This document shows positions 9,007 to 13,771 of a stretch of 64,000 nucleotides of DNA, one piece after another. Numbering within the stretch: the stretch's first letter is position 1; every line of letters begins with the position of its first letter. The notes under the pieces were generated by a model. It was not told where the DNA came from, ran no database searches, and was given only the letters and a program-made list of their open reading frames with translations. The translations under genes and the position numbers were made by a program. Origin of the DNA: Collimonas fungivorans Ter331 (GTDB lineage: Bacteria; Pseudomonadota; Gammaproteobacteria; Burkholderiales; Burkholderiaceae_D); contig NC_015856.1 of the NCBI RefSeq assembly GCF_000221045.1, positions 1,769,317-1,833,316 of the forward strand, written 5' to 3'.

Positions 9007-9037
9007 TTGCCATGCCACGTGGATTTTCTGGTATGAT
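9007..9037 (+). promoter_or_regulatory. Candidate extended -10 promoter for the thrS transcript
   Basis: TGGTATGAT (9029-9037) is an extended -10 element. TTGCCA at 9007-9012 could serve as a -35 with a long 19-bp spacer. Transcription would start near 9044, about 90 nt before the threonine-rich leader ORF. Confidence 0.35.
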
Positions 9038-9131
9038 CGGAAGCATCCTGTTGCCATCGCTGTTATCACTATCTGCGCTGGACGACTGCAACGAATTCAA
9101 CATCTGTAAGAGCGAGAAAGGCATCCCGGTT

Positions 9132-9173
9132 ATGACACCGCGAACTACCACCACAATCTGTGAGCGACGCTAG
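9132..9173 (+). CDS. Threonine-rich leader peptide upstream of thrS
   Basis: A 13-codon ORF reading MTPRTTTTICERR: five Thr codons out of 13, four consecutive (ACT ACC ACC ACA), then Ile. A purine-rich AAAGG lies 10 nt upstream of the ATG. A Rho-independent terminator follows 27 nt after the stop, and thrS begins 95 nt after the terminator. This is the layout of amino-acid attenuators, where stalling on scarce charged tRNA lets transcription through; E. coli thrL is likewise Thr/Ile-rich. The regulated gene here is the tRNA synthetase itself. Assignment is by pattern, not homology. Confidence 0.6.
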   Translation: MTPRTTTTICERR

Positions 9174-9200
9174 TCGAGGCCTTTTTCTACCTGCATGATG

Positions 9201-9230
9201 AAAAAAGCGCGGCTGGTCCGCGTTTTTTTT
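9201..9230 (+). terminator. Rho-independent terminator or attenuator before thrS
   Basis: CGCGG-(CTGGT)-CCGCG stem (9208-9222) extended by A-T pairs, ending in eight T residues (9223-9230). Part of the leader ORF (CGCGAACTACCA, 9139-9150) is complementary in two blocks to the 3' arm (TGGTCCGCG, 9214-9222), so an alternative fold that breaks the terminator is possible. Confidence 0.75.
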
Positions 9231-9324
9231 CGTCCGCGTTTTTGTTAAGCACACCTTAGTTAAGTACACCTTAATTTCATTCAATCCGGCATGGTCCCGA
9301 GCGACCGCCGATATGGGGCTCAAA

Positions 9325-11232
9325 ATGATAGCAGTCAAACTTCCCGATGGTTCACAGCGTCAATTCGATGCGCCGCTGACTGTGGCGCAGGTCGCCGCCA
9401 GCATCGGCGCCGGCCTGGCCAAGGCGGCGCTGGCCGGCAAGGTCGACGGCAAGCTGGTGGATACTTCTTTCCTGATCGAGCGCGATGTCGAGCTGGCCAT
9501 CGTCACCGACAAGGATGCCGACGGCCTGGAAGTGATACGTCATTCGACCGCCCACTTGCTGGCCTATGCGGTGAAGGAATTGTTTCCCGATGCGCAGGTG
9601 ACTATCGGCCCGGTGATCGAAAACGGCTTCTACTACGATTTCGCCTACAAGCGCCCGTTTACTCCGGAAGACTTGCTGGAAATCGAAAAGAAGATGGCCG
9701 AGCTGGCGAAGAAGGATGAGCCGGTGACACGCAAGGTGGTGGCGCGCGACGAAGCCATCGCCTATTTCGAATCGATAGGCGAGGCTTACAAGGCTGAACT
9801 GATCGGCTCGATTCCGCAGGACCAGGAAGTTTCGCTGTACACCGAAGGCAAGTTCACCGACCTGTGCCGCGGTCCGCACGTGCCGTCGACCGGCAAGCTC
9901 AAGGTGTTCAAGCTGATGAAGCTGGCCGGCGCCTACTGGCGCGGCGATGCAAAGAATGAAATGCTGCAGCGGGTTTACGGCACCGCCTGGGCCAAGAAGG
10001 ACGAACAGGAAGCTTACCTGCACATGCTGGAAGAAGCGGAAAAGCGCGACCACCGCAAGCTGGGGCGCGCGCTCGACCTGTTCCATTTCCAAGATGAAGC
10101 GCCAGGCCTGATTTTCTGGCATCCGAAGGGCTGGACCATCTGGCAGCAGGTTGAGCAGTTCATGCGCCGCGTCTACCAGGACAATGGTTATCAGGAAGTC
10201 AAGGCGCCGCAGATCCTGGACCGCTCCCTGTGGGAAAAGACCGGCCACTGGGAGAACTATCGTGACAACATGTTTACAACCGAGTCGGAAAACCGCAGCT
10301 ACGCGCTGAAGCCGATGAACTGTCCGGGCCATATCCAGATTTTCAATTCAGGCCTGCACAGCTACCGCGACCTGCCGCTGCGTTACGGCGAATTCGGCCA
10401 GTGCCACCGCAACGAGCCGTCCGGCGCCTTGCACGGCATGATGCGGGTGCGCGGTTTTACCCAGGACGACGGTCACATTTTCTGTACAGAAGAACAAGTG
10501 CAGGAAGAAGTGGCGGCCTTCGACAAGGTGGTGCGCCAGGTGTACACCGATTTCGGTTTTACCGAAGTGGCGGTGAAGCTGGCTTTGCGCCCTGAAAAGC
10601 GGGTCGGCGCGGACGAAGTCTGGGACAAGGCGGAAAGCGCCCTGCGCGAAGCGATCCGGGCTTCTGGCACGGAATGGGAAGAATTGCCGGGCGAGGGCGC
10701 GTTCTACGGCCCGAAAATCGAATATCACCTGAAAGATTCGATCGGCCGTTCCTGGCAGTGCGGCACCATGCAGGTCGACTTTTCGATGCCGGGCCGACTC
10801 GGTTCGGAATATGTCACCGAAGACAACGGCCGCAAGGTGCCGGTCATGCTGCATAGGGCGATTGTCGGTTCGCTCGAGCGTTTTATCGGAATCCTGATCG
10901 AAAATCACGCCGGTGCGATGCCCTTGTGGCTTGCTCCTGTGCAAGTTGTTGTTTTGAATATCTCCGACGCCCAGTCAGAATATGTTAAAAATGTTGCACA
11001 AACGCTGAAAAAACAAGGGTTTAGAGTAGAGACCGATTTGCGTAATGAGAAGATTACCTATAAAATACGGCAGCATTCTTTGCAGAAGCCGCCTTATATA
11101 CTGGTTGTCGGTGATAAAGAGCGGGATGCAAACACAGTGGCCGTGCGAGCGCGGGGCAATGTCGACCTGGGTGTGATGCCTATCGACGTACTGGTGGAGC
11201 GCCTCAAGAACGAGGTTGAAACCAAAGCCTGA
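9325..11232 (+). CDS. thrS: Threonyl-tRNA synthetase
   Basis: 635 residues. Charges tRNA-Thr and edits mischarged serine. An N-terminal TGS domain (1-60) is followed by the editing domain with HSTAH (His73 and His77, the same numbering as in E. coli, which supports the start at 9325 over 9313). The class II catalytic core has PMNCPGH, motif 2 ([23 protein letters not shown]) and motif 3 ([14 protein letters not shown]). The C-terminal anticodon-binding domain runs from about 535. It is the first gene of the conserved thrS-infC-rpmI-rplT-pheST-ihfA cluster and lies behind the Thr-rich leader and terminator, so it is probably regulated by attenuation. Confidence 0.97.
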
Positions 11233-11292
11233 ACGGGGCGACCCGAAGCGCAAGAGCACGGCTTAATTATTTGATTTTTAAAGGAAACTGCA

Positions 11293-11817
11293 ATAGCTAC
11301 GGACAAGTCACATCGCATCAACGGCGAAATTACTGCGCCAGAATTGCGCTTATCCGGTGTCGAGAACGAAGCACTCGGTATCGTCAGTCTGGCTGAGGCC
11401 TTCCGCCTAGCGGAAGAGGCAAACGTCGATCTGGTGGAAATCGCACCGACCGCGCAGCCGCCAGTAGCCCGTTTGATGGACTACGGCAAGTTCAAGTACC
11501 AGGAACAGAAGAAGGCGCACGAGGCCAAGTTGAAGCAGAAGGTCATCCTGGTGAAGGAAGTCAAATTCCGCCCGGGCACCGATGATGGTGATTACAACAT
11601 CAAGCTGCGCAACCTGACCCGCTTCCTGGATGAAGACGGCGACAAGGTCAAGATCACGCTGCGTTTCCGCGGCCGTGAAATGGCTCACCAGGACATCGGC
11701 ATGCGCATGCTGGAACGTCTGAAGCAAGACCTGGAGCCGTACGGACAGGTCGAGCAGTGGCCGAAGATGGAAGGGCGCCAGATGATCATGATCATTGGCC
11801 CGAAGAAGAAAAAGTAA
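11293..11817 (+). CDS. infC: Translation initiation factor IF-3, AUA start codon
   Basis: 174 residues. The conserved N-terminus ([21 protein letters not shown]) can only be reached from the ATA at 11293; there is no ATG, GTG or TTG before codon 18. AAAGGA sits 6-7 nt upstream of the ATA, at ideal spacing. The IF-3 N-domain, linker and C-domain (to [20 protein letters not shown]) are complete. IF-3 prevents subunit joining and rejects non-canonical start codons, so an AUU-class start lets it repress its own synthesis; E. coli infC uses AUU. Here the codon is AUA. Annotation restricted to NTG starts would truncate the protein by 17 residues. Confidence 0.93.

Positions 11818-12752: not shown

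Positions 12753-13771
<1,019 letters not shown>

Follow-up and report, generated by a model that had tools for sequence, protein, structure and literature searches.

A probable threonine-codon attenuator upstream of thrS in Collimonas fungivorans Ter331, recurring across its order

The leader of thrS in Collimonas fungivorans Ter331 is very probably a classical ribosome-mediated transcription attenuator, as judged by comparison of sequences and by RNA folding. In the stretch of DNA analysed here (64,000 nucleotides, referred to as the window), the hallmarks of attenuation are found together: a Thr-rich ORF, an intrinsic terminator before thrS, and an antiterminator that shares the 5' arm of that terminator. 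The parts, their conservation, the specificity for threonine and the competing pairings are all present on paper. The features are listed below in their order along the window.

9026..9038, + strand: possible extended -10 promoter element TTCTGGTATGATC, proposed from conservation
9114..9121, + strand: purine-rich, Shine-Dalgarno-like site GAGAAAGG of the leader ORF, read from the sequence and conserved in most rows of the family alignment
9132..9173, + strand: leader peptide ORF MTPRTTTTICERR, 13 codons, ATG at 9132, stop codon TAG at 9171-9173 included
9138..9149, + strand: region 1, CCGCGAACUACC, codons Pro-Arg-Thr-Thr; nucleotides conserved in 31 aligned rows, weak in the pairing test
9144..9155, + strand: control codons, four Thr in a row (ACT ACC ACC ACA), read from the sequence
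9170..9187, + strand: region 2, CUAGUCGAGGCCUUUUUC, containing the leader stop codon; its partner is either the upstream RNA or region 3 (antiterminator)
9200..9217, + strand: region 3, terminator 5' arm plus loop, equal to the 3' half of the antiterminator, from folds and pairing tests
9218..9230, + strand: region 4, terminator 3' arm plus U8 tract, from sequence and folds
9313..11232, + strand: thrS, threonyl-tRNA synthetase, the next gene after the terminator and the presumed regulated gene

The 13-residue ORF with four consecutive Thr codons that had been proposed in the initial annotation is present at these positions, as are the purine-rich site that it placed before the ORF and the T8 terminator that it placed before thrS. 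A fifth Thr codon, ACA at 9135-9137, is codon 2 of the leader. Within region 1, the hexamer CGAACT (9141-9146) is near-invariant in the 31 aligned rows, and region 2 contains two blocks, CUAGUCG (9170-9176) and CCUUUUUC (9180-9187). The terminator reads GAAAAAAGCGCGG CUGGU CCGCGUUUUUUUU, with the hairpin at 9200-9222 and the T8 at 9223-9230. A generic terminator scan of the + strand did not report the 9200-9230 hairpin, presumably because the U tract itself pairs with an A tract. From its sequence we take the ORF at 9313-11232 to be thrS; the in-frame ATG at 9325 is likelier to be the true start than 9313, and the distance from the end of the terminator to the start of thrS is accordingly 83-95 nt. 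On both strands of the window, the leader is the sole ORF of 6-25 codons beginning with ATG, GTG or TTG that holds a run of four Thr codons. Shuffled windows contained no such ORF in 9 of 10 shuffles and one in the tenth. A degenerate Met-Thr-Pro-Arg-Thr pattern occurs in three places in the genome, one of which is the thrS leader.

Upstream of the leader, TGGTATGAT is found in 14 of the 15 upstream regions of the genus (own sequence included) and TGGTATCAT in the remaining one, so that TGGTAT[GC]AT is kept in 15/15 of these loci. This element may act as a promoter in the genus, with a transcript start near 9045. A strict sigma-70 consensus scan found no promoter, and TTCTGGTATGATC, picked out by its conservation, is put forward as a suggestion.

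From these parts we infer a transcription start, translation of the leader, stalling and a changed output of thrS, as follows. RNA polymerase would start near 9045 and a ribosome would begin to translate the leader of 13 codons. Under a shortage of charged Thr-tRNA, this ribosome would stall at the Thr codons (9144-9155) and cover region 1 (9138-9149). Region 2 (9170-9187), already made and free, would then capture region 3 (9200-9217) to give the antiterminator, and polymerase would continue into thrS. With ample Thr-tRNA, the ribosome would reach the stop codon inside region 2 and cover that region, allowing the terminator 3:4 to form. Should the leader be untranslated, region 2 would be held by region 1 or by the Shine-Dalgarno region, and the terminator would again form.

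Conservation was followed outward from the genus. The ThrS search covered 60 genomes including the own one, all of which gave a match (G021 and G023 weak and partial), and 58 upstream regions were extracted. Conservation in close relatives was the check proposed along with the first description, and a Thr-rich leader with the same terminator is kept in all 14 same-genus relatives. Their leaders read MTPRTTTTICER[RH] in 13 of 14 and MMPLTSTTIRERH in the fourteenth, a genome of 1.7 Mb. Leaders of the wider family begin with an MTPRT that is almost constant down to the nucleotides, and the codons that follow are variable, as in MTPRTTTTMVWERR, MTPRTTTKLWE, MTPRTTSTSTSLERR and MTPRTSSADLQSIR. For counting, a leader was defined as an ORF no longer than 24 codons with an in-frame core hexamer (CGAACT, CGAACG, CGGACT, CTGACT, CTAACT or CCGACT) and a terminator after it. 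By this rule 31 of the 34 thrS loci in the family carry the arrangement, divided into 15/15 in the genus with the own sequence and 16/19 in other genera; L023, L025 and L033 are the three family loci that lack it.

Beyond the family, ThrS was found in 118 of 120 genomes of the order sample (G108 and G141 gave no match) and in 53 of 56 of the class sample. Entries in the order set are loci, and three second copies of thrS (L262-L264) are among them; G106 and G093 are left out, the latter having given no upstream DNA. The class loci read are the 29 best-matching of the 52 non-own genomes that gave a match. A third, named set was taken from the matches listed, as the best 80 of 586 relatives, and is for that reason biased towards near kin. 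Rows in which tRNA and thrS are separated by less than 50 nt, or for which little DNA upstream was available, were dropped as unusable, being too short to show a leader, which reduced the order set from 115 to 103, the named set from 80 to 77 and the class set from 29 to 27. In the other families of the order, 32 of 103 usable loci (32 of 115 in total) carry leader and terminator by the rule, most loci (83/115) not doing so. The named set, best 80 of 586, gives 49/77 usable (49/80 in total), and the other orders of the class give 0/27 usable (0/29 in total) among the 29 best-matching. Shuffles (20 per set) gave a mean of at most 0.2 and a maximum of 2. As read from these sequences, the putative attenuator is a feature of the order, near universal in the family and held by a minority elsewhere.

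Holders among the named records include Herbaspirillum, Massilia, Janthinobacterium, Undibacterium, Cupriavidus (MTPRTTTAEQRQ), Bordetella petrii (MISRPTRTTTGNFRPMSR), Achromobacter, Roseateles (MTPRTTTTPTKV), Hydrogenophaga, Azonexus and Thiomonas. The rule finds no leader in four records labelled Polynucleobacter (L077, L081, L082, L089), in the Gallionellaceae MAG L120 or in Methylobacillus L129. Distant leaders of the order have other starts, such as MFKRTTTTRISR, MSFRTTTTGTLNLG, MAVRTTTTHP and MCNGLSFRTTTTRER, and the count for the order is probably low, because the leaders MCNGLSFRTTTTRER (L226), L231, L237 and L159 escape the rule. The leaders counted number 112, each with a terminator as the rule demands; they span 9-22 codons, and one identical pair is among them (L036 and L106). 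The leaders of L100 (Azospira), L111 (Azonexus), L145 and L219 contain FRTC (Arg-Thr-Cys) and just two Thr. Before the second thrS copy of one genome (G066, L262) lies an ORF ending in IVTTTTTTSTAT, with 7 Thr in 8 codons, which is possibly an independent leader of another design.

It should be considered whether the hairpin merely terminates an upstream transcript, that of tRNA-Val in many relatives, with thrS served by its own promoter and the ORF incidental. Of 258 loci, 157 do have a tRNA gene in the 420 nt before thrS (ARAGORN: 164 tRNA-Val(GAC) and 1 tRNA-Asp). Outside the order, an upstream tRNA is also found where no leader is present (16/27 usable loci), and 46 of the 71 usable order loci without a leader have one, several of them with a hairpin and T run by eye. 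However, ARAGORN found no tRNA in the 64-kb window (within the genus, the whole-window scan covered the Collimonas fungivorans Ter331 window alone), yet leader and terminator are present in 14/14 same-genus relatives, and as a sole explanation a tRNA terminator is rejected on that account. Moreover, a plain terminator would not predict the Thr-specific synonymous coding or the antiterminator pairing above controls described below. We regard this reading as improbable. A tRNA, nearly always tRNA-Val(GAC), precedes 63 of 112 leaders. We tentatively raise the possibility, somewhat against the balance of likelihood, that in much of the order tRNA-Val(GAC), leader and thrS form one unit, in which a strong tRNA promoter would drive thrS, the leader would set the read-through of the stable-RNA transcript into the synthetase gene, and CGA-ACT would serve both as stall site and as switch strand.

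In a blind test of 20 amino acids, the maximum count of each in any 8-codon window of upstream ATG ORFs was compared with 60 dinucleotide shuffles, after tRNAs had been trimmed by ARAGORN and near-duplicates removed. At least three Thr occur in 13 of 18 family representatives (0.2 expected, z=17.2), in 24 of 98 representatives of the other families of the order (1.3 expected, z=20.2) and in 31 of 63 named representatives drawn from the best 80 of 586 (1.0 expected, z=26.1). The runner-up, Met, reaches z=6.9 in the family, 4.1 in the order and 8.1 in the named set (best 80 of 586). Outside the order Thr is not enriched, at least three being found in 1/27 (0.5 expected, z=0.6). Since the core hexamer includes a Thr codon by construction, the Thr of the core is no evidence; the evidence is the blind test together with the Thr past the core. 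There, the first codon after the core is Thr in 76 of 112 leaders, spelled ACG in 19, ACT in 20, ACC in 27 and ACA in 10, and the second codon is Thr in 80 of 112. Over the five codons past the core, the share of Thr in 60 representatives is 0.33 in frame vs 0.03 and 0.01 in the other frames. This synonymous variation and the bias of frame point to selection on threonine in the leader frame. Thr-poor leaders also occur, with two Thr in 18/112 and one in 3/112.

The core itself behaves differently, CGA ACT being nearly fixed in spelling, unlike the downstream Thr codons; a pairing role as region 1 could explain this invariance. It also suggests another reading, in which the conserved unit is a nucleotide-level RNA element around GTTATGACACCGCGAACT, for example a site bound by a protein such as ThrS, and the Thr codons are a by-product. 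The near invariance of the GTTATGACACCGCGAACT core in the 31 aligned rows extends to third codon positions, and 21 of 112 leaders have just one or two Thr, both of which are in keeping with such an element. The distant leaders, however, drop the ATGACACCG part yet retain their Thr runs (MFKRTTTTRISR, MAVRTTTTHP, MSFRTTTTGTLNLG), and the Thr codons past the core vary synonymously. On these two grounds a pure nucleotide element is rejected, its probability being slighter than that of the tRNA terminator.

The four regions offer the competing pairs 1:2, 2:3 and 3:4, the antiterminator 2:3 contending both with the terminator and with pairing inside the leader. Sliding 18-nt stretches of 9100-9199 were scanned against each arm of the terminator. 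The best leader pairing with the 5' arm and loop (9200-9217, 18 nt) is that of 9170-9187, at -15.5 kcal/mol; with the 3' arm (9218-9230, a shorter target of 13 nt), none goes beyond -7.3 kcal/mol. The initial annotation had described two leader blocks as complementary to the 3' arm. It probably saw the real blocks, CUAGUCG and CCUUUUUC, and named the wrong arm; an antiterminator needs complementarity to the 5' arm, which the 9170-9187 pairing fits.

The pairings were then compared over 60 representatives, with region 2 taken from stop-8 to stop+24, limits that were chosen after a weaker test on a wider region; in that earlier comparison, which took the entire spacer as region 2, 8/36 loci for 1:2 and 11/36 for 2:3 had at most 5% of shuffles as good. 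Thinning of the representatives relied on shared words and not on a tree, so that the p-values given here are approximate. The antiterminator 2:3 has a mean of -14.08 kcal/mol vs -11.39 with region 2 shuffled (Wilcoxon p=6e-9) and vs -12.52 when region 2 was swapped from other loci (p=5e-5). The gain of the protector 1:2 is modest, with a mean of -9.43 kcal/mol vs -8.27 shuffled (p=4e-4) and -8.63 swapped (p=0.02). In 53 of 60 representatives the sites of the two pairings share 4 nt or more of region 2. At single loci, at most 5% of shuffles were as good in 20/60 for 2:3 and in 7/60 for 1:2. For the sequence of the window itself, 46% of shuffles match its 1:2 pairing and 5% its 2:3 pairing. 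Pairing 1:2 is well illustrated by a Hydrogenophaga record (CGCGAACU with AGUUCGCG) and by Cupriavidus (CACCGCGAACUACU with AGUAGUCGAGGUG). In the fixed register of the CTAG-type antiterminator, 40 of 52 leaders form 7/7 pairs, differing solely in U-A vs U-G, and the other 12 break one or two of the seven; covariation in this register is weak, the changes being mostly one-sided.

The RNA left free downstream of assumed ribosome positions, with assumed footprints, was also folded. For a ribosome placed on the first Thr codon of the run, the antiterminator is the MFE structure even when the full terminator is available (-21.1). For one placed on the fourth, the antiterminator comes first (-17.0 at 9222); in the finished RNA the terminator, at -18.6, is slightly favoured over the antiterminator at about -17.0, and the switch would here depend on the antiterminator forming first. 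At the stop codon the terminator alone is possible. Without a ribosome, upstream RNA occupies region 2 and the terminator is again the outcome; GAGAAAGG (9114-9121) is able to pair with 9179-9187 in such folds, and in the fold of the window itself the protector is this Shine-Dalgarno region. Folds with imposed ribosome positions thus largely switch as expected in the model. That the leader instead works through Rho-dependent termination or control of thrS translation, for which it may be said that leader ORFs can in general work through Rho and that the 83-95 nt before thrS leave space for further control, is the least probable of the alternatives, an intrinsic terminator and an alternative antiterminator being present and conserved. 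Ribosome-mediated attenuation of thrS, as first suggested from the window, agrees well with the conservation, the recurrence across the order and the competing antiterminator.

Downstream of thrS, two further genes show peculiarities of their own. In the window, pheS (12753-13771) is broken by a frameshift near 12,930-12,945, with a stop near 13,455, and it is intact in two same-genus relatives. The Pfam core domain of pheS matches the two gene pieces and one weak other place in the own genome; as the domain is otherwise absent, it is likelier that sequencing introduced an error into this essential gene than that the gene was truly lost. The infC gene (11293-11817) appears to begin with ATA (ATA GCT ACG GAC AAG), preceded by a AAAGGAAA site. 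Between the in-frame TGA at 11272-11274 and the ATA no usual start codon is found, and the start stretch is found in 26 of the 30 loci searched (L001-L030). Unusual start codons of infC are known.

Regarding known systems, catalogued RNA families such as amino-acid leaders and T-boxes are rejected, no Rfam covariance match to one having been obtained in the window or at seven leader loci. The window gave no match at the gathering score, and the seven leader loci, read at E up to 1, gave two tRNA matches and four below gathering scores. In a literature search of titles and the beginnings of abstracts, no betaproteobacterial thrS leader was found; Lopatovskaya et al. 2010, whose subject is reportedly, by its title, attenuation of aminoacyl-tRNA operons in bacteria, may contain one. 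The case of thrS recurs across the order; the mechanism itself is a familiar one, not a new one. In E. coli, thrL (Rfam Thr_leader) controls thrABC biosynthesis through Thr and Ile codons. It resembles the present leader in its Thr codons and its terminator/antiterminator switch; it differs in its target, thrABC, and no Rfam family matched at the thrS leader here. The E. coli pheST attenuator, with its pheM leader and Phe codons, likewise acts through a leader peptide on an aminoacyl-tRNA synthetase gene, one located in the gene cluster of thrS, and differs in the codons and the gene. A term search for thrS and threonyl found neither in the main texts of PMC8632094, PMC11109978 and PMC6429828.

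The closest parallel in print comes from Streptomyces lividans, in which the passages of PMC8079986 concerned with it describe a thrL leader before thrS as a proposed attenuator, so that a leader peptide in front of thrS has, as such, a precedent. As there described, that system shares a short Thr-containing leader ORF and the same gene downstream; it differs in that the peptide, MKRVRPFLETTPGFVPAR, has two Thr and is leaderless, with one hairpin and no U-rich stretch reported in those passages (PMC8079986). By eye it has no resemblance to MTPRTTTT beyond Thr, and its host is an actinobacterium. If the attenuator of the present order is real, it could serve in many bacteria as a read-out of threonyl-tRNA charging and would add a set of genes of 9-22 codons that are easily overlooked. 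The thrS gene of E. coli is a textbook case of self-repression, in which ThrS binds its own mRNA and blocks translation. This autoregulation through the ThrS operator is named in a passage of PMC2965389. The two systems are alike in exerting feedback control on the same gene, and differ in the sensor, which in E. coli is ThrS on the mRNA and here is apparently the ribosome on the leader ORF. If this is true, one gene would have two unrelated feedback solutions, one in E. coli and the other in a large sister group, a contrast that is testable.
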